Below, piece after piece: positions 22,714-63,595 of a stretch of 64,000 nt of DNA. A model generated the notes under the pieces. It was not told the DNA's origin and made no database searches. It saw only the letters and a program-made list of their open reading frames with translations. This DNA comes from Paralichthys olivaceus (Eukaryota; Chordata; Actinopteri; Pleuronectiformes; Paralichthyidae), in assembly GCF_024713975.1 (NCBI RefSeq), contig NC_091113.1, positions 14,830,501 through 14,894,500 on the forward strand, read 5' to 3'. How positions within the stretch are numbered: the stretch's first letter is position 1; every line of letters starts with the position of its first letter. Position numbers and translations under genes: made by a program.

Positions 22714-25700
22714 ATGAAGAGTCCACCGTGGCCAGGAGGGAAGAAACTGGTTCACCTGGATCTGAAAGGTGCCCCTCCCAGATCAGAGTACCTCCATGAA
22801 GTAAGAGCACGCACGCACACACGCACGTCTTTCTATAGTTGTGAGGACACTCATTCACATAATGCATTCCCTAACCATAACCATCACAACTTAATGCCTA
22901 ACCCTGACCTAAACCTAATTCTAACCCTAAAACCAAGTCTCAACCCTCAAACAGCCCATTGACTTTGTGAGGACCAGCCAAAATGTCCTCACAATGATGG
23001 TATCGAACTAAAATTGGCCCTCCATAACTATAGTCACACATACACACACACACTGTCTCTGTCTGTCTGTCTCTGTAAACCTCCACCTTCCCTCTCCTCA
23101 GCTGATCTCGCTGTTCTCTCAGCTGGGAGTGGATGGCCTGCTGGTGGAGTATGAGGACACGTTTCCATATGAGGGGGAGCTGAAGCTGCTGCAGGCCACA
23201 GCACAGCCTGCCTACAGGTGCAGTGTTCCACATGTGCCTTATTTATTCCTCTCTCTTATAATTATCTGCATTTTTCTTTTTTTTTACCAGAGACTAATTC
23301 TTGGATCTTGATGAACAGAATTAGCCATGTTTAGGAGACTGGTATTTATGAGTGTGTACAATTGGATGCAGATCCAAATCAAAATCCAGTTCTGTTGAAT
23401 TTAAATGTGGTTGTACAAGGGGACTGTTGGACCTAGGCGGAGGTTTTCACTCGAGTAAACAAGTGACAGGTAATAATGGACAATGAAGACAGGAATTTGT
23501 ACAACCCTGTCCAACACAAACTCTGGATGGCACCTGTGTAAGAATCTGGCCTCAGTAATGTCTCCACACAATAACACACATTCCATTACACAAAGGATCT
23601 GTGAAGTGATTGTTCATATGAGGATCTTTCCTGTGCAGCTTTTATAGGACATTCATTAGAATATTCACAATGAATCCGAGAGAAGCTGAATGTCAGGTAT
23701 TTTGTAATCAGACACTGGAGAGGAAAGGACATAATGTTGTGGTAATGTAACCGCATTAACCCTGTGGCATGAAATTTTCCATTCAGCACTGCTATTTTCA
23801 TTACTATTGATTGTTATGTATTATTAGAGCTATAGATAAAATCCTCATCGTGTAGTGAGAACCTGTTATACAGTTATGATCCTTCCTGTGTGGGATGGAA
23901 GTAATATTTCATGTGCAAGTCTGATGTGCCGTAACAAGCTTTGATTCATGAAGTTCGGTAAGTGAGTCTGTTCACCGTGTGCTGTGTTTCCAGTCGAGAG
24001 GAGGTTCTATCCATGCAGGTGTTTGCCAGGTCGAAGGGCATGGACGTCATCCCGCTGGTGCAGACGTTTGGCCACATGGAGGTGAGGCAGACATATAGAA
24101 CTTTATTGTCATTGGATGAACAGCTCTTGTTTTCGATGGGGTCTCCAAACACGTACAAATAAGAAAAAGTACAAGTGACAATAATATGAAACGCAACAGT
24201 TGCAGAACAAACAAGAGAACAGAGTAAGGAGGGAAAGGACAAAAGATACGGCCTTGGACTAAAAATCCATGATTTCCTAAAAAAAACTGCGACATCATTG
24301 CTGAAAAAGTAAGCAATTTCCTATAAAATGAGAAAATATTTTTGAATGAGCTCAATGAGGACAGAGAACAGATATTTAAAGTCAACTTATCCTGCTCTCT
24401 CAGTTACAACTGTTCACGACGTGGCTACAGCTGCTCAGATTTGGAGTTCACCACCAGGCACTGTTTGTGGCTTCTCTGTCATAGTTTGTGCTGAAGCATC
24501 GGCCCATGTGGGGCCTCAGAGAGGTGCCGCACTGCGTGGGCACCCTGAATCCACACGCAGAGGACGGGGTGAGGATAGTGATGGAGATGCTGAGGCAGGT
24601 GGTGGAGCTGCATCCTGGTCTCAACACGCTGCACATCGGAGCAGACGAGGTGAGGACTTTTTTTATTTCTACCAGCTGTGTAGTCATCACTGGGCTACCA
24701 CCATCACTCATGTGCTTGCCCTCTAGGTGTACATGCTTGGTGAAGGGGAGCAGTCAAAGGAGTGGTTGGCCTCCTCCCCAGAATGTACAGTGCAGCAACT
24801 TTTCCTGAATCACGTGACCAAGATCGCCAAGGCCATCAAGGAGGCGTGGCCGGACATGAGCATCATAATGTGGGATGATATGATGAGGAGTATGAGCCAG
24901 GACACGCTCAAGGGTGAGGAAGAACCGCTGGTTCTCACTAAAGCAGAGCTATTGTTGCAGTTTAAGGATTTCACGTTTAAAGTAACTGTGCCCAAGGAAC
25001 TAGTAAATATAAAGAACACAGTCAGCTATAGCAAAAGAAGCCCCATGGAATAGAGGCAAAACAGCCCTGAGAAAGAGTCAACAGAAGAGAAATAAATGAA
25101 GAAGATGTACAGCGAATAAAACGCACTTCTGTGAAAGAATAGATTATTTAAGTGAGTAAAATTAAATACATTAAAAAATGTATTTAAAGGAATAAAATCT
25201 GAAGATAATAAAGTTAATAAATCAAGTGAATTAAAAAAATATACCGAATGATAAAACAGGCTTAAAATAGATAAATGGTCAAATAAATAAATAAAATTCA
25301 TTTGAAAGCCTGACTTAAAGGTAGATCTTGAGTTTGCTTTTAAAAATATCAACACTGTGCTGCCCTCAGGTTTTCAAGAAGGCTGTTTCAGAGGCATGGT
25401 CCATAGTAATAAAATAAATAAATAAAAATAAATATCATTGTAAAATTGCCCTCATTGTGTTGAAGGCCTGCTTGGTCTTCCATTTGAAGGACCATTGCTG
25501 TTTTTTGGTATCATTGCATCCAAATGTCTCTTAATTTGAACGTTTCTATTCATTCTTTAGCAGTTTCAAACTTATTTTCTTTTTTTAAACAGCCAGTGGT
25601 CTCGTAGGACTTGTCCAGCCTATGTTGTGGGACTACACCCCTGACCTGGATGTGGACAGAACTGGTAGGGACTGTTAACCATCAGAATTGGTGATACATT

Positions 25701-39310: not shown

Positions 39311-40260
39311 AACTCAGAAGAAACGCGGAAACTGTGGTTGTTAAGAATAATTACGCCATTCATGTTCAATCATTGACAGATTAACTCCTTAGTTCTTAAG
39401 CCTCTACTGGTCCCATGTCATTTTGCCCTTGTGTGGTAACTAATTTCAACAATGTCATATCCTAATGTATGTTAATGTGGACATCAAATATGATTTCTGT
39501 TTCTGAAAACTCTCCATGCTGTAGGAACCGGGACTTTCAAGAAGTGACCCTGGAGCGAGACGGAGAAATTCTGCTGCAGTTTGCTGCCATCTATGGTTTC
39601 AGGAACATCCAGACCCTGGTTCACCGCATGAAGAAGGGACATGTGCCGTACCACTTGGTGGAGGTGCTGTCCTGTCCGGGAGGTAACACTGCAACTATCA
39701 ACTCAATTTCAAACATATTTAGAGTAGCGCCAACCAGTTTAACAGTTGGTCTCATATGTATCAGTATCAGAGTTAATGTTGGCGCACGTGCACCAGTAAT
39801 GAAAACTTTTATTATACAGAATAAAGAAAGCAAAATTAGTTTGTATTAATTTTTTTTATATGGTATTTGGTTTAACTGGAAAACAAACACACCCACACCT
39901 TCTATATTCATATCAGTCAGATTCTAATCCATGCTCATTAGTCTCCTGTTTTCCTGCAAATGTTATCTACCATTCAGCTCTAATCTGTAAACTCTTCCTG
40001 TTTCTCACTCAGGGTGCTTGAGTGGCCGCGGTCAAGCGGAGAGCGATTCAGGGGGACATGTGGACAAAGCCCTAGTCCAGCAGATGGAGGACACCTACAG
40101 CAGCTTGCCGGTGCGTCTCCCCGAGGTCAACCCCACCCTGTACACCCTCTATCAAGAATGGCTGCAGGGCCAGGACTCCTCACAGGCCAACACGCTGCTA
40201 CACACCCAGTACCGAAACCACACTCAGACGCACGCACAACCACCACACATGCAGTGGTGA
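33756..40260 (+). CDS. narf: NARF, nuclear prelamin A recognition factor
   Basis: Eleven coding exons: 33756-33812, 33928-33996, 34276-34404, 34497-34629, 35223-35357, 36177-36295, 36903-37032, 37658-37730, 38278-38415, 39525-39682 and 40013-40260. They give 462 residues (human 456). The protein is an iron-only-hydrogenase-like member that, in mammals, binds farnesylated prelamin A in the nucleus. The N-terminal KCENC and C20, the ferredoxin-like CLSCDGC, and the hydrogenase-domain cysteines in SVCPQS, SSCPGW, APCFDKK and [12 protein letters not shown] are all present. The N terminus and the KCDASKHK segment favour NARF over its paralogue CIAO3, as does the neighbour CYBC1. It ends in Trp, as both paralogues do. 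The exon 7 acceptor is a tandem CAGCAG. Confidence 0.94.
34700..34995 (+). repeat. L2-like LINE tail plus second repeat in NARF intron 4
   Basis: The frame around '[18 protein letters not shown]' followed by 'FKDS*KLTYI' is the C-terminal end of an L2-type reverse transcriptase. It is followed at 34870 by 'ttctgaagggaaattgacat', part of another common teleost repeat. Both are fragments. Confidence 0.55.
37360..37460. repeat. dispersed repeat, same family as 13390 and 51690
   Basis: The text 'tttcagactcgcactgaact' followed by 'attctcctgaaattatccag' matches the family seen in OGFOD3 and FDXR introns. It lies in NARF intron 7. Confidence 0.4.
39254..39308 (+). repeat. (CA)27 microsatellite
   Basis: A perfect CA run in NARF intron 9, 216 bases before the exon at 39525. 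Confidence 0.97.
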
Positions 40261-43884: not shown

Positions 43885-44729
43885 ATGTCCCGTGTGTGGA
43901 TATGTTTGAGTCTGCTCTGCGCTGCCACCCACTCTCTACAAACCAGTGCTCCGCCAGGTATTTTTATGTTGCTAATACCATAAGTAAATACACTGGGTAC
44001 TGATTTTTTAAATACGTATGAGAACATAAATCATTTCTTGCCCCTTTTCTGTGTTGTCCAGCAGTGAATATGAGGTGCAACGAAACAGTGGAAGTGGAAG
44101 CTGGAAAATCTTTGACAGTATACTGTACTGTAAATTATATTGACCAGTCAGGCTGTAGAATTACAGGTGCACAGCTGAACACAAATAGCAACGTAACACA
44201 TGACTATGAAATTAAAAGTAACACTTCTGTGTTGCTGAATGTCTCAAATGTCACGAAAGACAATAACTGGACTGTGGAGGTAGAAACAGACTGTGGTTCT
44301 ACCAACTTAATCCCTATCAAAGTAACAGTCAACCTCCGCAATGCTCCGGCTGGTGAGTATCTTTCAGTGTCTTAAATACAATTATTTTTGTTTTGTTAAA
44401 TTGATATAGCACTGCTTAAACCACACATACAAGATACTTTACATGTTAAAACTGAAGGAAAACAATTAGAAGCAGTATGAAGATCACACAGCAATGGAGC
44501 ACAGATGCATATGTAAAAAGTGTTACAGATAAGAAAAGAGTAAACAAAAGAGTATGGAGAGAATAAAACATTGTAAATTATTCAAATAGTTGTAACAGAA
44601 CTAGGAGAGAGCACATCTATAAAATGTGTCTAAGAGAGATTTGAAAGAGGATCAGAACATTTGTGTGAGTGTATATGTATGTATGTGTGACTGTGAGTGT
44701 ACGTGTGTATGTATGTATGTGTGCATGTA

Positions 44730-47486: not shown

Positions 47487-50400
47487 ATGAGCGGCCACAA
47501 GTTTCTGTTGTCCAGGCTGAAGCTGTGGACGCCGGGGAGGAGCAGGTGGTTGAGTCCGCTTCATGGTGGTGAGTGAACAGATGTTTCATGTTCAACCTGA
47601 AGCTCCATCAGTTCAGTGCTGCCCATACTGTGCGGACGGAGCACGCACCAAACCCAATGCAAAGTTCAGTCAATTATGATTCGTTTAAGTTGCTTATTGT
47701 CAGAACCTAATACCTCTTCTCGAAGATGATGCGTAACCTTTAACTACGGACTTCACTCGGTAATTCAGTTTACACCAAATGTTCCAAGATGTATGAACTG
47801 TGAGGCAACAACTTAATGCCCGATTCGTCATTCAAACACATTGAACACTACAGAGACCTCATTCAGTATCTATTTATTTAGATGTGGAGGAAGTACTCAA
47901 ACAAGAAGTACAAGTACAAATATGTAGATAATATGTACTCAAGTAACGGTCCATTACATCATTGACTGTGCTTACTGCACTCATTATGGTTGTTATTATT
48001 ATTAGTGATGCTAACGACTATAATTGTTCTATTCACTTTTACTAGAAATAATTGCTGTAAAATAGTTATTATAGATATGTGCAATGTTGTAACAGTATTG
48101 CACATAATGTGATATTGAAATTGCATGGATAGAAATGGTCATTGCACAGTTAAGTAAGATATATATAGATATATATATATATATCTATTTTAAGCGGGGC
48201 TTGACAAGATTTTCATAAACAACGGCCGCAGAAAGAAAAAAAAACCATCTCTTCCGTTGTGGTTGTGTTTCCATTATGTGGCTTTTGTAGATGTGTAGTG
48301 GTCTGCATTTGTGTTCTTGTGTGAGACGTCTTTGTCACCGTTAGAAAGTAATATATTTGTTGATATATGTTGTGGAATAAAAGCACCCAAAAAAAAAAAA
48401 AAAAATAGTAACAGTACAGATACATGGAACATGTACTAAAGTACAGTAACAAAGTAAACATACTTTGTTACATCCTCCACTCATAATAGGCAACTGGACT
48501 TTTTTTTTCTACACATGAAGACATCATGTGGTGTATGACTGAGAAGTTTCACTGATATTAAGAACTTTGTATTAACGTTGGTATCCCAGGTTGAACTGCT
48601 CATGAACTTGCCTAATGACTTATCTTACACTCAAAGAAGACATTTCACTTGCATGTTCAGGCCGTTCAGGATTTCTTTATAATCTACTGCAGGATTTGCT
48701 GTTTGTTTTCATCTGTTTTCTCTCTGTTGATTGTGCAGTTGTAACTAGGGGTGGAACAGCCTCTCTTTACTCCAGCAGCCCAAAGGTGTGTATCGTAGGA
48801 AGTGGTCCAGCAGGTTTCTACACAGCACAGCACTTGATCAAGGTAGGTCCATATTGGGTCATATTGATGCAACCTTTTTATTGCAGTGTAAATCATTAGA
48901 TAGTCATGTACAGTGCATCACTTTCATGTTCATGTTCAGCAGTCTGATTCTGTTGATGTGATTTTTCATAATTCGTTTTTTAAGAAACTGTTCCAATAAG
49001 AAGACTAACTAACACTAACGTAGGACAAACTGTAAAATCAGTAGGTAGCAGATCAAATCTGAACCCACACAAAATAGCTTATTCAAATAAAAGCACTTCC
49101 AACAGTAACTATCATTCAGTCCCATGTTTTACGGTTTAACTGCTCTTTAATACCGTGACTATACCTCCAGCATAGTGTGGCTTTGAGCTAAATTCTAATG
49201 TGAGCATGCTAACATGATCATATTAGCATGTATGTGTGCATGGCAGGTATGATGTTGAAAGTGATACTGCTGATATGTTTACTGAGCTGTAAAATAATTA
49301 TATGACTTTAGTGAAATACACCAGTGCAGGTTTTAAAATTACATTCTTAAAATATTTATTAAAAAAATCAAAACATGGCATTTAACGCCACAGAGTATTT
49401 CAAAACATCTCTGTGGGCATTTAGTTGTGATCCTTAGGGTTTGGAAAAGGGTCTGGCAAATGCATTATGCCAATGAGTGTCCTCATTAAGATAGAAGTAC
49501 AAGAATGTGTTGGTGTTATCTTGTCATGGATCATGGTCCCATCAGAAGTCTTCTTTAATATTTGCAACAACTATCATAAAGATATTTTACATTTGTGTCT
49601 GTTTTTCTCTTGTTTGTCTCCTCAGGCTCGTCAAGATGTTGAGGTGGACATTTATGAGCGTCTGCCCGTCCCCTTCGGCCTGGTCCGGTTCGGAGTGGCC
49701 CCAGATCATCCTGAAGTCAAGGTCTCTATCTCTAATGAGAAGTGATGGATCACAGTCAATTGCCCAATACAGGACTCTGTTTCCACCCAGCTAGATTTCA
49801 GTTATGTGCTGTTTTGTGTGATGCTTTGATAATTACAATATAATCTGTTTGTCTTCTCTGATCGCGAGCTGTGTCTTCCACCTTGTCGGAAAAATTCCTT
49901 CACATGAATAATGCGAAAGCACCAGTGACTCAATCAGGAGAACGTTACCATGGAATGTAGACTTACTGAATGAGACTATGAGATCGCATTTTGGCAGAGT
50001 GTGAGATCACCTGAGGTGATGTGATGTGTGTAATACAATAACTGAAACTGTGGAAATCTTGGCTCGGTAGCTCGGGAAATTCCCACATAAATTTCCGTTA
50101 GACAGGGAGGTGAAAAGAAATGAAAAGTGAACAGGGTGAGGACAGAACAAACACGGAACAAACCGAAAGTTGCTTGACGTTGTAATTAGCCCAACAAAAC
50201 CTTTAATGGCTTTGGTCAGGGTAAAGAGGGAAGTCAAAAAGGTGACTGTTACAAAGGAGACAGATCTTTACATCCAAATCATTCCACACACATGTGTTTG
50301 AAGAAACTATCTTCAAACAAGTAGTAATATTTTTCAAGTGCTAACACTGGTCAACTATTTATTTTACTAAAACCTTTTCTTAAACTCTAACCAAGTATTT

Positions 50401-53400
50401 TTTTTTATGTGACAGTTTAATGGTTTATCATTAAGGGGATACTTAAAATTTAAGGGAGCCCATCAGATCTTGATGAACCAATTATTTCAGTTGAAAATCT
50501 TTACTGATGTACATTGCATGATTTGCTGAGAGCAAAATGATGTAACAACTGTCAATGGAAACCAAAATCAACCCATTGAGGGCCTGATTCAAAGCCATAC
50601 AGAAAATATTAAGTAACAAATTTAAATCACAGGCTAAACAACTTGCATGAATTTCAGAACAGCAACTCATAATTTGACTCGGTAATGTGCATGGCCTCTG
50701 CATGCCTGTATGCACTCCAGACAACGTCTAGGCATGCTCCTGATGATTTGACGATTGTATTCCTGGGAGATCTCCTCCCAGACCTGGATCAGATAACATT
50801 ACGGTTAGTGGCATCAATACCTTTATCATCCAGGAACTGCCGACACACTTTACCCAACAGCAGTCAGGGTACCATTGGCTATGACATGGAGGTCTGTGCG
50901 ACCCTCAAAGGATATGCCTCCCCTGTAATGAAATACCTCTAGTCATCGTTGAACTGAATGAATCGCTGATTCAGTCTTGTTGTTCTACAGGAGCGATAAA
51001 TCCATTTTTAGTCTATTTATTTTAACACATCCGATCTTTATACATCCTCAGAACGTCATCAACACATTCACGCAGACGGCCAATCATTCACGATGTAGCT
51101 TCTATGGTAATGTCAATGTGGGGAAGGATGTGAGTGTGAAGGAGCTGCAGGAAGCCTACCATGCAGTCGTACTGGTAAGAACACAACTATCTGCGCTGTA
51201 ACTCACCTTTAAATAAAATTCATGAGAATCTTTATGCATTGTGTCTGTGTTATTGCAGAGTTATGGGGCAGAGGGGAACAGGAGAATAGGAGTCCCAGGA
51301 GAGGACTTGGCTGGCGTGCACTCTGCCAAAGACTTTGTGGGCTGGTACAACGGGTTGCCTATCTGTCAAGAGGTAGGCATTACAGTGATTGTTTCCCATA
51401 AACCATGTGGATTGTTATAAGACCTTTCAGGGTTTTTTCCTCCTGCGTTTCTTTCCCATCACTCACATCTTTCACTTTCTGTTCAGCTGAGTCCAGACCT
51501 GAGCTGTGAAACAGCTGTCGTTCTGGGTCAAGGTAACGTGGCTCTGGATGTGGCGAGGGTCCTGCTCTCGCCCATTGACATTTTAAAGGTGAGTATAGCA
51601 ATGGATAAAAGCAAAGTAACCACAAAGCATGATCATCAATTTGAAAGACTCATGAAGGATTAATGAAGACAAAAAAGATGGTTTTAATATAGCCATTTTC
51701 AGACATAAGAGAATGTCTGCAGAATTGGGTCCGGACTTACTCCGCAGTTTGCCTTCCACTGTTGAGCAATCAGGTGACAGGTTGTGCAGCCGCAGGATGT
51801 AAAATTTTCGTTGTGATAACGTGTTTTCTTAACAGCAGCCACCCACATCGGCCCTTATCACCAAATCTTTCTTGACATCTTCATGTGTCTTTAACGTTTT
51901 TGACTAGTCTTATTCATCCTGAGATATTTGTTTTTTTTGTGTGTGTTTGTTAAAAATGTAATCAACACTCGCTGACGACCCTCCAGGGGATCCTCTGCTG
52001 TGTTCTCACACCGGCTCGTTCAAGCTTTATACAGCGTTTTTACTAGGGGCTGGTCGAAGAAACTCTGGAGAAAGTCAGGAGACTCTCACTCGGACATTTG
52101 CGCTCACAAACCACCCCTTGTACACACATACCACAGAATGATTCTCTGCAGCTCAGCACATGTCTGATTCGGATTTTTAAGATTTCTGAGAGGGATAAAA
52201 AGCTAAATTCAGGATGAGAGGAAACAGACCAGGTTACAGTAGCATATCACCCACTTTCTTGATGCGTTGATCTTAATCTAAATGCCAGCTGCACAACATG
52301 GGATTGAGATAAAAACCAGGTGGGCATATGAAGGAATACAGAAAAATAAAATTTGGCAGTCACATGATTTAGGATCCAATCCAATAGCTCTGTTTTGTGC
52401 TAGACTTCATTATATTATGAGCTGTTTTGAAACATCTCTCAACAGTTCAGTCACCATTCACTATGACCTCAGTGCTAAAACATAAATCATAAATCAATTA
52501 AAGACCATATTCACATGGCGGACATTTTCCTCTGATAAATGTTTTACTGCAGTGATCCAGGTTAATAAGTCATCTCAGAAATGATTGGAGTTTCTGAGGG
52601 CGTGTTATTGAAAAGACTGATGGAAAATGTCTATTTATTCTTTATTGCAGAAGACTGACATCACCCAGCCTGCTCTGGAGGCTCTGGCAGAGAGCTACAT
52701 CCGCAGGGTGCTGATAATTGGCAGAAGAGGGCCAGTACAAGTCGCTTGCACAATCAAGGTGTGTGAGAAAAAGTGGAGTAAATACCTTTGACCTGTATAG
52801 AGAAGAAAAACAACTCCAACTGCCATTAACCAGCACTTTGTTTTAGAAATGCAACATGCCTTTCACAGTAACCAGAATGAGATCAGTGCCAAGTCACATG
52901 TATGACAGTCACATCTCCCAGAACTCTGCTTAAGTAGTTTTTGCTTAATCCTGCTCACAATCAGACAGAGGTGGAAACATAACCCCCTTTGCAGTGGTAA
53001 AAAGCCAGAACAGTCCTTTAAACAACACTGTGACATTTTCTAACCCTACCTTCAATGTTTTATTTTCTTCATCTTGTTATGTTCTCCTGGTCCGCAGGAG
53101 TTTAGAGAAATGGTGAACCTGCCAGGCACCAGACCTGAGATGGTGGTGGCTGATTTCGAGGGCGTCCCAGAGGCTCTTAAAGGTCTGAAATAATATTTTA
53201 TCATAATACTTTTCCTCTTCAGGTGGTGGTTGCCTCATCCACCTGGTCCTAACAAAGCCTAAGAATTTGAGTATATCACATTTTAAGTCAATTTCATTCT
53301 TTTTCCTTTTTTTTTTTCTTACCCCACAAGCAGTAAAAACACATGAAATTACTACATGTGCTGAAAGTAGGTGTTCACAAGACATTAGTGTTCAAGACTG

Positions 53401-56400
53401 TCCAATGTGGTTAACAGACTGTTGAATGTTCTCTTGTTGAAAATGTTTCCTGTTGGAGTAAGATGCTGCAGCTCTGTCCTCGTGCCCTTTTTGTTTTTTC
53501 CTCATCCTTATCGGAGAAACGACATTGAGCTGAGTGATGTTTACAGCGATAACATCCTCCTCGTCTCTGTTCATGGTTAAATGAGAACCTTGATCTACAG
53601 TGAGTTAAGGACGATGTTAGAAACTGGTGGTTTGTGTCTTTTATTTTGTTTCCAGATGTTACACACATGAGTGGACGTTTCTAAACACCAGTGAGTCCAA
53701 ACAATTTTCCAAAAAGAAAACAAATCGGCTGATTTTAAAATTAAAAAAATACATTTTACATTAAAAAAAGTTATACAAATTTGGATATATTTGTATTTTG
53801 TTTTTATTTATAGTTATTTATAATAAAGTTTATGGTTAAATAGTAAAATATCACTGCAAAGTTTTTGGAAAATGTATATAGGTCGATATATCAGTATCAG
53901 TAATGTTTTACTTTATTGGCATCAGCCTCCAAAGATCCATACTGATCGGGCTCTAAAACAAACTGGAGTTTTTACAGCAGAGGTGTGGATTCATAGATCT
54001 TGTTTTTCTTGATTGGTAGAATGTCAAAAACAATTCTGGTGCTCTTCAGTCTGAGGATCCAATAGGTTCACGTTCCACCTTGTCAATACTGATCATCTGA
54101 CCACTTGGTGTAAAACAGCTCAAAGACGGCCATTTATACTTTATATAAGAGCGTATACACTGAAACACACAGGCATGTTTTTACTGTTGCTGTGATGTGA
54201 TTTAATAGCCATGAGATATAAAAAGCTTGATAACTTACCACCTTCTTCAGTGCCTCATATTCCTTCAACTTGATGAACAAATAAAATAAGTTTCCCCTGG
54301 GTTTTAGTCAAGACAACTTTGGAGCATTTTATATAATATGTACATATGTAATATGACCCAATAACAGGTCAAATTGGTTCTAAAGCAGCCACTTTGTTTT
54401 TAATAAAATGTTTCTGGTATTTAAATAATAAGTCTAAAAATCAAACAGTGTCTGATTAAGGAAACTTTTCTGTGCAGTCAGACGAAGTACTTTTCTGTCT
54501 AGCAGTAAAAAGATTAAACACACGCCATATTCATGCATTAAAAGCACTTCTGAAGGAATAGGTTCTGAGTATTCAATAATTGAGTCGGATAATCTCTGCT
54601 GCGTCAGATTTGCCGAGGCCCAGGAAGCGTCTGACGGAGCTGATGTTGAAGACGGCCCTGGAGACCCCCGGGGAGAAGGAGCAGGAGAGACGAAGCAAGG
54701 CCTCCCGCACGTGGGGATTTCGATTCTTCCGGAGCCCCGTCGAGGTCCTGGCCGACCCCGAGCACAACAGAACAGCTGGCATCCGACTGGCGGTCAACAG
54801 GCTGGAGGTAAACGGATTCTCTGTGTAGACGTGCATGTGTAGCTGCTACATAAGCTTGGTTCAAGTTGGTTCCCTCTCTGCGACCAGGGTTCAGGTGAAG
54901 GGGCCCGTGCAGTGCTCACTGGAGAAGTGGAGGATGTCAGCTGTGGTCTGGTCATCAGCAGCATCGGCTACAAAAGCCTTCCCATCGATCCATCGGTGCC
55001 GTTTGACTCCCACAAAGCCATCGTCCCGAACACCATGGGCCGCGTTCAACAAACTACAGGTACTGTATTCAATATGTGTATGAACGTGTGTATGTGCACA
55101 TGCGTATCAAACAAGATGAATAGTGAATCCATGTTTCTTTTAGGTTTATATTGTAGTGGCTGGCTGAAAACCGGCCCCACTGGTGTGATAGGCACGACTA
55201 TGAACAACAGTTTTGACACAGCTCGATCGTTACTGGAGGACATGGAGTCAGGAACGCTGGATGTGTCTGCTGCCAAGTCTGGTTCACAAACCATCAGTGC
55301 TCTGCTGGAAGACAGAGGTAATCCACTCGGCACTCACATGTTTGCTGTGCTCTATTATCTGACCTGGGAGTTCAAAGGACGTGGTCACTTCTCTGAGATA
55401 GTTTGAATCACACTGTGTCTTGTCAAACTGCACAATATTTTGTTGTCTCCACCAAGGAGGTTTTGTTTTCTCCCCTGTTTGTTGGTTTGCTGGACTCATG
55501 CCACTCATACCACACACCTGGACACAGCACTGGTCACTGAAGGAACTCTTCCTCACTGCCCTCATCCACAACATCACTAGCCACGCCTATAGGTGCAGTC
55601 TACCCCCAGTGCTGCTTCACATATTCTGGTGATCATAATGCACAGATTCAATGTGCCCCAGGGGTCGGCTTTAGATCCAATTTTGTTATATCTCTTATAC
55701 ATTCTGCCCCTCGGTCACATCATAAACAAGCATGGTGTTTCATTTCATTTTTACGCTGATGATGCGCAGTTGTACCTGCCTGTTAGACCCACAGAGCCTG
55801 GTATACTGAGTTCTTTAAACAACTCTCTTCCTGAGACTTAGAACTGGATGTCCAGGATCTTTCCACAGCTGAACCCAGACAAAACTGAGATCATTTGAAT
55901 TGGAGCTGAGCACATGTCAAAACAAACACTGCCATCTGCAGGTCTGTTAGTGGACCACATCAAATCTGCTGCGAAGAACCTTGGTCTGGTCTGAGTCAGC
56001 GATCTCTTAATTCTATTTTTAAAAATTAATTTATAAAAATATTGTCTTTTAATATTTGCGATTCCTTCATTTTTTATGTGCTCATGATTTAACTTGTTTT
56101 ATTTTGCTGCCCTTGTAAAGCACTTTTTAACTGTAAATGCTCTATAAATAAAGTCATTAGTTATTGTTTGAGCAAGAATGTGGAAAAAACAGATTATCAC
56201 GAAACTAAATGGAAGGATGTGGTATGAGTCAGGGAAGAACATAATATTTTGGTGCAGATCCAGATCAGGGACTTTTTTTAACATTAGGATTGCGAGATAG
56301 CATAGCGTATTACAACATGTGAGATTGGGAATGTTTCCCAGGAAATATTTTATAGATTCAGGGGACTGATATTAATGCGAGCACAATTTAGTGCAGATCT

Positions 56401-57801: not shown

Positions 57802-57807
57802 TTTATT
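57802..57807 (-). terminator. polyadenylation signal of the VNTR gene
   Basis: AATAAA on the minus strand lies about 130 bases after the stop at 57936. The 400 bases between this and the FDXR signal show nothing else. Confidence 0.6.
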
Positions 57808-57935: not shown

Positions 57936-59516
57936 CTAGCGTGAGGGAACCTGATAATGCGTCCGAAACCTAAAATTGTCCTCACTTCCTCCTCTGACTG
58001 CAGATTGTCTTTCTATGACTTCAACAGGTTCCTTACTGCGTTTTATGCGCATGTTGCCACCTGCTGCTGACGAGCCGTCCAGCGTCACGTTTCCCTGCAC
58101 TGCCCCGTCCAGCGTCACGTTTGCTGCTGACGAGCCGTCCAGCGTCACGTTGCCCTGCACTGCCCCGTCCAGCGTCACGTTGCCCTGCACTGCCCCGTCC
58201 AGCGTCACGTTGCCCTGCACTGCCCCGTCCAGCGTCACGTTGCCCTGCACTGCCCCGTCCAGCGTCACGTTGACCCCTGCCGAGCCATCCAGCGTCACGT
58301 TGACCCCTGCCGAGCCATCCAGCGTCACGTTGCCCTGCACTGCCCCGTCCAGCGTCACGTTGACCCCTGCCGAGCCATCCAGTGTCACGTTGCCCGGTGC
58401 CGAGCCGTCCAGCGTCACGTTGACCCCTGCCGAGCCGTCCAGTGTCACGTTGCCTGGCACTGCCCCGTCCAGCGTCACGTTGCCCCCTGCCGAGCCGTCC
58501 AGTGTCACGTTGCCTGGCACTGCCCCGTCCAGCGTCACGTTGCCCCCTGCCGAGCCGTCCAGCGTCACGTTGCCCCCTGCCGAGCCGTCCAGCGTCACGT
58601 TGCCCCCTGCCGAGCCGTCCAGCGTCACGTTGCCCCCTGCCGAGCCGTCCAGCGTCACGTTGCCCCCTGCCGAGCCGTCCAGCGTCACGTTGCCCCCTGC
58701 CGAGCCGTCCAGCGTCACGTTGCCCCTTGCCGAGCCGTCCAGCGTCACGTTGCCTGGCACTGCCCCGTCCAGCGTCACGTCGACCCCTACTGCGCAAGGG
58801 GGGCACCGATTCTCCTCAGGTTTCAGTCCGACCAATACCTCAGCTTCCACTTCGTTGGTTTCCAGGAGAACTTGAAGAAAGACATCGGATTAGATTGGCA
58901 TTTAAAGCAGAAAATTGCGATTTTAACTACCTTGTCACTTTGTCGTGCAGTTAATCTGACCTGCAGTCCAGTAAAGGCCCATCATGATTAATTCACACGA
59001 TGAGGCTCAACCACAAACATTTTGCTCATTGTAGTGTTTCAGAGAAGCTGCTCACCTTCTTTAACATGTTCCTTCAACACACTCTCCACTGAATGGATGA
59101 GTCCCAGGGCTTTCTTTAAGGCAAAGTCATCGGGAAACAACTCTAAACCAGAAGAAATGAAACGAGTGTCAGAGAGTAGCTCAAAAGAAAAGATCATTTG
59201 TAATTTTCTTTCCTTACCGCCCATCTTTCTGTTCAGTACATTACCTTCAATTTCATTTTTGCTGCCATATGGCAAACAAAAGCCTGTGCAGAGAAAGTAC
59301 ACGAGTTGTTAATTTTTTTTTAGCTGATTGACATTTCAGGAATACAAGCCACTAATCAAAAGACTTAAATAAGACTGAAATAATTGAACCTTAAATTTTA
59401 CATTTGCTATACTCCAGTTCTAATGTTTTAAGCCTCTAACAAAAGGGACATAACAAACCTTTGGTAAGCCAGGAAGTCAGCACACAAATAAGCAAGGCCT
59501 CAACAGCTCCCATCAT
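57936..59516 (-). CDS. unrecognised secreted protein with a glycosylated 10-residue VNTR
   Basis: Four coding exons on the minus strand: 59459-59516, 59245-59283, 59056-59142 and 57936-58870. All junctions are in phase and give 372 residues. Exon 1 is almost wholly a signal peptide (VEALLICVLTSWL). Residues about 21-82 are non-repetitive: FCLPYG, an acidic segment, then a probable amphipathic helix (ALGLIHSVESVLKEHVKE). CPPC at 84-87 precedes the repeat array at about 93-332. The array has 24 units of the form N-V-T-L-D-G plus four variable residues (SAGG, SAGV, AVQG, AVPG, SSAA and variants). Twenty-three units keep the NVT sequon; the first reads DVT. A 40-residue tail with KRSK and FRFRTHY follows. 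No membrane segment is seen. I do not recognise the family; a mucin-like or structural secreted glycoprotein is an inference only. Confidence 0.75.
58067..58786 (-). repeat. 24-copy, 30-base coding minisatellite
   Basis: The word 'agcgtcacgt' (sometimes 'agtgtcacgt') starts every 30 bases from 58081 to 58771 without a single change of spacing. Because the unit is a multiple of three and contains no stop in several frames, long open frames exist on both strands; only the minus frame joined to the upstream exons is taken as coding. GC content is far above the surroundings. Confidence 0.97.
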
Positions 59517-59559
59517 TTCAGTCAGGAAGAGAAGCGTGTCCTGCGTCTCACGAGCTTTT

Positions 59560-60250
59560 TAAGACATCGTGCAGGAGTCAGCTGTTCCCACTCCCAGCTA
59601 ATTGTCTTTCTCTCCTTCCCTCTGCTCAGTCTCTCCTCCAAGAGATTCAGCACTTCCTGTCCCAAGCATGGGGCACAATCAGTCAGTGTGTAAAGTTCTA
59701 CAAATGTAGTATTTGTTTATTTATATCATAGTACATGTTGAGCACCACTATACTATAAAGAACTTTAAGTGGTCATCAAGACTATGTAAATACAGACCAC
59801 TCACAGTATTTTTATGAGAGTCTTTACCTGTGATGGTCGATGGAAAAGAAAAAAATGTTTGTGTTAAACCAAAGTTTTTCATCCAGTTTTTATCAATGGT
59901 AAAACTTTGGATCGATCTATAAATACCCTTAAAAGTGATCATCTGTACAAGGAATTGCAAAGACTCAAAGCACCTCACCTTCTCTGTGAAATAATTTTTT
60001 CACTGTCAACCTCTGCCTCTAAGCAAAAACAGACACTTAAATTACAGCAGAACAAATATGGATTTTGGGGGGCTGATACCGATACCTATATCAGGGAGTA
60101 AAACATTTCTGATGCCAATATATCGGCCGATATATATTTAAAACATTTTTAATGATTCCTAAGAGGTACAAACCCTTATGACAAATAATTGAGGGTTAAT
60201 ATTTTACATAGTTTGATCATTAATTTTAATTACAAACTAGAATGGCTAGA
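59560..60250. repeat. upstream flank of the VNTR gene with a palindromic repeat
   Basis: Around 60075-60140 lies 'gctgataccgatacctatat' followed by the perfect 18-base palindrome ATATATCGGCCGATATAT at 60118-60135, part of a fish repeat. The promoter of the VNTR gene should be near 59560-59700, but I see no clear TATA box or GC box. Confidence 0.4.
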
Positions 60251-61006: not shown

Positions 61007-63595
61007 ATGGCCGACAGCGGTGGGCCGAGTGGAGCTGCTCGCTCAGGTGAAGCGTCACAGGTAAAGTGAACAACGTGTAGATTCAATATTTACTTCATAG
61101 AATTGTACTGTTTTAAATAATATACACTTCATGCACTCACAGACTTACTGCTTTAGCTTGCAAGATAGCAAGCTAACGACGTGCCGGGGACGCTAAGTTA
61201 GTGCTAGCATTACTAGCATGAGAAGTTGGCTTGAGCTAGTTAATTAGCACTGACCTGCAAATTATGAAATAATTAATTTGACACATAATGTTGATCGAAA
61301 TACAACTTGTGTGGATTTATAAATGGTGTCATTCGGCGTATAAATCTATCCATCGTATAAGTCCGGTCTCTTTTCTCCTTTGCTAATCCTCCTCTCGGCC
61401 ATGTGCATTTGTTTTCAACGGAGGGAAATCAATCAGTGGATGATGGATTATCATACACACATTATGACGTGTATGTTTGTGTAGTCTTATCTGTCATAAA
61501 CAAAAGGTTACGGGGCGTGTTTGTGTCGCAGAGACGAGAGCTGGGACACCGGGTCGGAGTCTCCATTCTCCATGTAACACGTTACAAGTGGTTTATTTAA
61601 GCAGCACTATTACTCTGAAACTGTTTGAATCAAGGTCAGAATGAACCATAAGGCAAATATCCCGTCCTCCTCTGATCAGAGCAACATCCCTTGAAAATGC
61701 AGCGATTGGCAACATTCAATGGAGCCCTAGAATAATTATTATTATTATTAGCTTACAGTCAGTTGCTTGAGATCAGGCACATAAGTGTGGTTTGCATGGG
61801 TTCAGACTGGCGTGCAGTTTGGTGTGGATGCTGACCCAAGCTCAGACTTTAAGAAGATGTTAGTTTGCAGGCATTCTGTACAAGCGTGAAAAATACCCAT
61901 GTCTGTAATATTTGCTATTCAATTTTGTCTTTTTTCTCACTCAGGTGTGAGAAAAATCTGGTGTTGATGTTAAGGAACAGGGGTGAATTATTTAATATTT
62001 TGAATATTCTGAATGTCAGGCCAGTCAGACAGGAGAAGCTGCTGTCGGACAGGGAGGGCAGTCAGTTCCAGCAGTGAGGCCTCAGCGGGCAGTGCAACAA
62101 CTTATAAGATCTCAGAACAATGGCCATGGACTGTCAGTGAAACAAGAAATGGCGCGGTAGGCTTCATGGGTCATGTGTTGCGCTCCCAGTGCAGGCACAT
62201 TTGGACAAACTAAGTCCATGATTCTGATTTAAGCTGAAGGCAGAGAAACATCTGCAGATGTTTTAAATTCTATTATCTACCTTAGAATATTTTCAGGAGC
62301 TTCAGACCATCCCCATGTAAACTATTGCGTAAAACAAATTCAACAAATGTACACAAGCTTCTGAGGAACTGTCACTCATGCTGGCTGGCCTTGGAAAACA
62401 TTCACTAACCATATCTGAAAATATGACACATTCAGAGGTATGCTACCATTCATTTGCTGCCTTGTGTCAAGTCATGTCTCAAGAGAAAAACACCCATCTT
62501 AGAATTCATCTTGATGCATGATTGTATTAATATTTGCATGAAGCTTTAACTATGCTTTTTTCTCTTAAGTTTTCAGAGTTGCTTGTGAGTGCATATCCAA
62601 GATTGGCAAATATCAGTGATGGCTGGATGCTGCACAAGTCCACAGGTCTGTAGGCGTATACACTGGATTAATGTTGTTTCAAAATACTCTATATGAGTAG
62701 TTAGTGTATATTCAGGTTTGTTTAGTATCTATAATTTTTCAATTTTAGGTGGGGGTGGGCGGCGGAGCTTGGTTGTAATCCCTCCAGATCTATATGGATA
62801 CACTGGCCAGCAGCTAAAAGCAGTGAGCAGGAATGGAAAATACACATTGTACATTTCTCCTTTACAAGAAGAACTTGATACAATTCCATTACCACCCAAA
62901 GCAAAGGAGTTTGAGAACATGCCCAAAGCCCAGTGTACAACCTGCAAGAAAATGGTTCCACTTCAGATTCTTCCAGTACACATCACGGAATGCAAGAAAG
63001 AACTTGTAGACTTGTCCTATTCTGCTGAAGAGGTATGTCAAACTTTTAGTCTTTATTTCACAGCTGTTTATATTGAAAAATAAGATGTTATTCTGTATTA
63101 TGCTCTAAACACTTACGTTTCATTATTGTTTTTCTCCCCCAGGAAAGCTGCAACGAAGAACATGAAGATGAATTCCCAGATTCCATTTGCAGCCAGACAG
63201 ACAAGGTGAAATGTTTGTGCCTTCCTGGTAAGTTAAGATATTAATCTTTGGAATAATGTAAAATTTTATTCACATGCCTTGTGAATTATTTTTTAAGACA
63301 GCAGAGTGTCCTGTGTGCAACAATGCATTTCAAGTTGACATAATTGAGATCCATGCAGCCACATGTGGATTACGGTAATATTAATGATTTTAGTGTAACT
63401 TTTTGAATGTATACCTACGTTTATTTGACAAATTACATATAAGGAGATTGCCTTGCAAAATGTTATATGTATGCAAGTGTTTATGTCAAGATAAGTTAGG
63501 ACGAGCTGTTTTCTTTATGTGTGCAGACCTTCAGATAATAACGGCCATGAGTCAAGTGGATCAGTACCAGTCAGTCAAATCAGCACCTTTCAAAG
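61007..63595 (+). CDS. 5' part of a C2HC zinc-finger gene (fish G2/M E3 ligase-like family), runs off the window
   Basis: Exons seen: 61007-61060 (MADSGGPSGAARSG), 62020 to 62136 or 62156, 62570-62645, 62749-63032, 63143-63205, 63298-63374 and 63527-63595. Phases agree from 62570 onward. The join from exon 2 is unresolved: a donor at 62136 keeps frame with 62570, while the stronger-looking one at 62156 does not. The protein has SELLVSAYPRL, a Gly/Arg patch, VVIPPDLYGYTGQQLK, and two Cys-X2-Cys...His-X3-Cys fingers (CTTCKKM...HITEC and CPVCNNAF...HAATC) like UBZ4 ubiquitin-binding fingers. This layout recalls fish proteins annotated as G2/M-phase-specific E3 ubiquitin-protein ligase-like, which often continue into a HECT domain. 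No HECT domain is inside the window, so a downstream continuation is expected. Confidence 0.6.

Follow-up and report, generated by a model that had tools for sequence, protein, structure and literature searches.

Analysis of a 64,000-nt window of the Paralichthys olivaceus genome (contig C21, 14830501-14894500; all positions below are those of the window) revealed a gene on the minus strand, running from 59516 to 57936, whose four spliced exons encode a predicted protein of 372 amino acids. It lies tail to tail with fdxr, encoding ferredoxin/adrenodoxin reductase, which has several exons at 48606-55406 on the plus strand and whose exon open reading frames at 49431-49745 and 54843-55406 match adrenodoxin reductase. 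The protein of the minus-strand gene begins like a signal peptide and continues with a unique region of about 71 residues that includes a CPPC motif, then 24 tandem decapeptides and a basic tail after a furin-type RIKR site. The coding part of exon 1 (59459..59516) supplies the signal-peptide-like sequence MMGAVEALLICVLTSWLTK, and exons 2 (59245..59283, 39 nt) and 3 (59056..59142, 87 nt, helical by eye), both delimited by the spliced model and splice scores, are each flanked by phase-1 introns on both sides. The coding part of exon 4 (57936..58870), an open frame, carries the end of the unique region with CPPC, the entire array, the basic tail and the stop. The unique region has a pI of 4.65 and ends in CPPCAVGV, and the part preceding the array comprises 91 residues with the signal peptide counted in.

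The three introns (59459/59283, 59245/59142 and 59056/58870) are all GT-AG and all in phase 1, reproducing exactly the junctions that the original prediction had proposed. An upstream exon is required, since the open frame of exon 4 contains no methionine before the array. Secretion of the precursor, also part of that prediction, follows from the hydrophobic, signal-peptide-like start: the top six of 80 eleven-residue stretches all begin at residues 2-8, with a best Kyte-Doolittle mean of 2.41. The splice sites are of uneven quality, with two of the six mediocre, namely the donor AAG|GTTTGT (95th percentile of GTs) and the acceptor TTCAAG|T (89th percentile of AGs). Alternative exon combinations are also open, and exons 2 and 3 could be skipped in frame.

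The array occupies 720 nt (58062..58781, minus strand) as 24 units of 30 nt, with all 23 steps between units measuring exactly 10 codons. Each unit reads NVTLDG plus four residues, which fall into seven versions: SAGG (7 units), AVQG (6), SAGV (4), AVPG (3, the first unit counted), SSAA (2), SARG (1) and SAPG (1). VTLDG is present in all 24 units and N-V-T in 23, unit 1 being DVTLDG, so that the 24 decapeptides, 23 sequons and 30-base spacing claimed at the outset were found again in the spliced translation. The density of N-linked sites that had been emphasized is likewise borne out, the array ranking first in sequon density among the 292 stretches of the window that run 60 or more amino acids without a stop. 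Within the 22.0-kDa array, whose pI is 4.05, codons 2-6 (VTLDG) show silent variation only, three of the five codons varying and none altering the residue; the N codon changes once, in the first unit, and codons 7-10 do alter the residue. Because unit spacing is exactly 30 nt, copy number is free to vary in frame, as had been anticipated. Mean unit-unit identity over lags 1-11 peaks at lag 2 (0.889, versus 0.835 at lag 1), in agreement with a higher-order period of 60 nt, and this pattern suggests that the array grew by stepwise duplication with the sequon block kept.

Codon constraint within the array is weak evidence for coding, because the units appear to have been homogenised and the antisense frame does almost equally well (5 invariant plus 2 synonymous-only codon columns, versus 5 plus 3 in the sense frame). 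Since the antisense array frame is also open and nearly as constrained, the choice of strand rests on the splice sites, the hydrophobic start and the AATAAA polyadenylation signal at 57802..57807 (minus strand), which begins 129 nt past the stop where 0.16 such signals would be expected in 150 nt. These features bear on the explanation that the locus is a GC-rich minisatellite without coding function whose array frame is open by accident. In its favour, a period of 30 nt leaves several frames open on each strand, and the antisense frame scores nearly as high on codon columns; phased introns, a hydrophobic start, exactly 24 units of 30 nt and a well-placed AATAAA argue against it.

A shuffle test addressed the same question, with the array held fixed, the 835 nt upstream dinucleotide-shuffled 1000 times and exon chains leading into the array frame counted when their splice scores were at least the lowest of the real gene and their start hydrophobicity was at least 2.3 or at least 1.8 (real value, 2.41). 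With thresholds taken from the real sites and hand-entered splice matrices, a design that favours the model somewhat, a chain meeting the splice minimum with a start of at least 2.3 appeared in 1 of 1000 shuffles. An earlier run of 200 shuffles at that threshold gave none. Lowering the start threshold to 1.8 gave 16 of 1000, and 1 of 1000 when the array also had to be preceded by 91 residues or more; some open chain, its start disregarded, was present in 291 of 1000. The real upstream sequence yields 54 chains, 39 of them with a start of at least 1.8. With a comparable model this rare among shuffles, we consider a minisatellite origin very unlikely and conclude that the minus-strand gene model is a real gene and not a chance open frame.

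After the array, the protein ends in 41 residues with a pI of 10.8 that consist of GGNM, then RIKR, then a basic end. The RIKR site (residues 336-339; 58038..58049, minus strand) is preceded by the acidic array and followed by 33 residues, and is predicted from its furin-type motif to be cleaved. The opposite charges of array and tail invite the speculation that the tail might help packing and be removed later. Upstream, a TATA-like TTAAAAA (59556..59562, minus strand), picked out by eye about 40 nt before the ATG, is a weak candidate element, as is an E-box, CAGCTG, at 59579..59584 on the minus strand (37 in the window, about 0.06 expected per 100 bp). We take this E-box to be of the type bound by the oocyte factor FIGLA.

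Structure prediction was consistent with a regular fold but proved uninformative. AlphaFold2 run without an alignment gave ten-residue periodic strands (mean pLDDT 64.9), with nine successive array blocks at 81-87, and the top Foldseek match of this model was a bacterial beta-helical antifreeze protein (E 0.042, TM 0.41), none of the 99 matches falling below 0.001. Taken by themselves, these results could point to a regular beta-solenoid, for example an ice-binding one whose threonines line up along a single face. As a control, the antisense translation of the array (238 amino acids, no product of the repeat gene) was modelled and gave the same kind of model, with ten-residue periodic strands, a mean pLDDT of 67.9 and its first five blocks at 81-85. 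Because the antisense translation folds alike, repetition alone is enough to produce the solenoid prediction. A glycan on each unit would moreover cover a face of such a solenoid, and a search of PDB sequences returned no antifreeze protein. Given the match at E 0.042 and the equally periodic control, we do not assign the protein to the beta-helical antifreeze proteins, and we hold a regular solenoid to be very unlikely.

Database searches with exon 4 and the array gave only matches that we read as repeat composition: DUF6263 (0.0064), Gasdermin (0.3) and DUF1842 (0.49) in Pfam, all below the cut-off, and the Natrinema pilin PilA2 (0.019) in the PDB sequence search. The array pattern was absent from viral contigs, and an Rfam search of the window returned no match. 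The unique N-terminal region had no match in Pfam or PDB, and none of the 11 and 94 pattern stretches found in the viral and prokaryote collections, respectively, was confirmed as a relative.

The arrangement nevertheless corresponds to a known kind of egg protein. The original prediction knew of no family for it; short tandem peptides bearing one N-glycan each, such as the medaka nonapeptide and cod ASNGTQAP, are the mark of N-linked hyosophorins as these have been described (PMC3528131, PMC9630641, PMC6983019). The definition of hyosophorin given in one of these accounts includes a short peptide repeated identically in tandem (PMC3528131), and another distinguishes two groups, one with O-linked polysialic acid, exemplified by the salmonid polysialoglycoprotein (PSGP), and one with bulky multiantennary N-glycans (PMC9630641). 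The flounder protein has the tandem short peptides (24 units of 10 residues) and one N-glycosylation site per unit in 23 of the 24. To reach the carbohydrate content of 80-90% by weight that characterises N-linked hyosophorins, the 22.0-kDa array with its 23 sites would need 3.8-8.6 kDa per glycan, which we judge to be within reach of bulky multiantennary chains. To our knowledge, a signal peptide followed by a short unique region and 24 N-x-T decapeptides fits no group except the N-linked hyosophorins. We therefore propose, with a probability of roughly 80%, that the product of the gene is the L-form, or precursor, of an N-linked-type hyosophorin, a cortical-alveolar glycopolyprotein of teleost eggs, by analogy with the studied members. 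It is probably a known kind of protein with an apparently new ten-residue unit; the letters NVTLDG had no match in the open literature searched.

Comparison with individual glycoproteins supports this placement while setting the decapeptide apart. Like medaka (Oryzias latipes) hyosophorin, the array repeats a short unit in tandem in a fish, with one N-linked site per copy; the medaka unit, which carries one large N-glycan, is a nonapeptide of other sequence. Cod ASNGTQAP, described by its peptide sequence and glycan composition, is likewise short, rich in small residues and N-glycosylated once, at an N-x-T sequon; the decapeptide differs from that small polar unit in having two hydrophobic residues (V and L). 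A hyosophorin with a penta-antennary N-glycan is described for flounder (Paralichthys olivaceus) itself and, judged by this description, is also a glycopeptide repeated in tandem that bears an N-linked chain. Salmonid PSGP is a tandem peptide polymer of cortical alveoli as well, but its unit has 13 residues and three O-linked polysialic chains (PMC3528131), in contrast to a 10-residue unit with one N-x-T, present as N-V-T in 23 of 24 copies, so that we do not place the protein in the O-linked group. An N-linked hyosophorin cannot be assumed in every fish, because in tuna eggs the principal sialoglycopeptide on record has its glycans O-linked, to a different peptide (PMC10672638). One variant of the proposal, which we regard as doubtful though conceivable, is that the gene encodes a lineage-specific N-glycosylated decapeptide polymer with a new unit and an unrelated N-terminus, which arose independently of the hyosophorins in medaka, cod and salmonids, so that the egg function was re-invented from another repeat at a new locus, the one convergent with fdxr.

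Such a secreted repeat protein with N-glycans could also serve elsewhere than in cortical alveoli, as a component of the mucus of skin or gills, of the ovarian fluid or of the egg coat. The sequence itself speaks only to secretion and dense sequons, and the N-terminal region belongs to no family in Pfam or PDB, both of which leave room for such a role. We know, however, of no protein other than those of fish eggs in which each exact short repeat bears one N-glycan, and when the literature was searched for N-glycosylation together with decapeptide repeats, no title among the matches listed pointed to one. Mucins and antifreeze glycoproteins resemble the array in high glycan density on tandem repeats and differ in being O-linked with other repeat compositions, mucins carrying O-glycans on S/T/P-rich repeats. 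A function of this other kind seems rather unlikely to us.

For an N-linked hyosophorin, expression in oocytes, attachment of glycans, storage, the two cleavages and an osmotic function would follow by transfer from the hyosophorins that have been studied. The precursor would be made in growing oocytes and directed into the secretory pathway by its signal peptide, and one large N-glycan would be added on nearly every decapeptide. The basic tail would be lost at RIKR and the product stored in cortical alveoli. At fertilization, discharge into the perivitelline space and cutting between repeats would release glycopeptides that the chorion retains because of their size and that draw water inward. 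Later, acid peptide:N-glycanase could free the glycans, each event converting N to D. Hyosophorins are described as acting in colloid-osmotic swelling of the perivitelline space and cushioning of the embryo (PMC3528131). The sticky or protective role first suggested for the protein comes near to this, the osmotic swelling and cushioning treated in reviews being assigned here by analogy.

A DNA search of the 588-Mb genome (25 contigs), which scores the best candidates only and skips very common words so that a diverged copy could escape, placed the array at one location only. Searched exon by exon, the N-terminal region had one strong location and one weak match, on contig C24. The latter (locus C24:5292106-5295228, match at 1501-1623) reached E 0.52 with 39% identity over 42 query residues and was treated as chance; its short open stretch shares VEAE...KP...RCPP with the unique region, has no tandem repeats and showed, by eye, no nearby upstream exons comparable to those of the repeat gene. 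It could be the remnant of a relative, chance being the likelier explanation.

The genome also contains a candidate for the later de-N-glycosylation step, an activity that is associated with hyosophorins without defining them. A gene on contig C13 has two exon matches over the cut-off to PF09113, a PNGase F-type domain found in none of 14 control genomes, and for one of these exons the only PDB match listed was zebrafish Si:dkey-256h2.1 (9lwg, 3.2e-19). We infer that this zebrafish protein is the Ngly2 of PMC12753239 and that the flounder genome thus has a relative of this acid peptide:N-glycanase. There, Ngly2 is reported to be confined almost entirely to the ovary, knockout strongly lowers the free glycans of the egg, and hyosophorin is proposed as a substrate (PMC12753239). 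Because all fish may carry Ngly2, its relative indicates capacity and not function.

Judged by reference lists, the primary hyosophorin literature is glycan and protein chemistry of 1978-1999, and the open-literature passages on hyosophorin that were consulted give no genomic locus for it. A gene with exact boundaries, together with an Ngly2 relative in a chromosome-scale genome, allows one to ask where other fish hyosophorin genes sit, whether the units of hyosophorins have a common origin or arose more than once, and what function the protein serves. With a copy number free to vary, the array is also a test case for the fast evolution of a fertilization protein.

Several other open stretches occur in the window, all on the plus strand. 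One near the repeat gene (62697-63083) has a Cys-X2-Cys...His-X3-Cys pattern with a sub-threshold match to the XAF1 zinc finger (0.23) and no PDB match. Another (44022-44375, 117 amino acids) contains six sequons, the second highest density of the 292 stretches, and resembles an immunoglobulin-like exon by eye, with nothing firm in Pfam or PDB. A third (24485-24808) shows a weak likeness, below the cut-off, to glycosyl hydrolase family 20 (E 0.0039) and is perhaps hexosaminidase D. Finally, 39466-39849 is an exon of an iron-hydrogenase-like protein (Pfam PF02906, 2.5e-08, with weak PDB matches), presumably narfl/ciao3.
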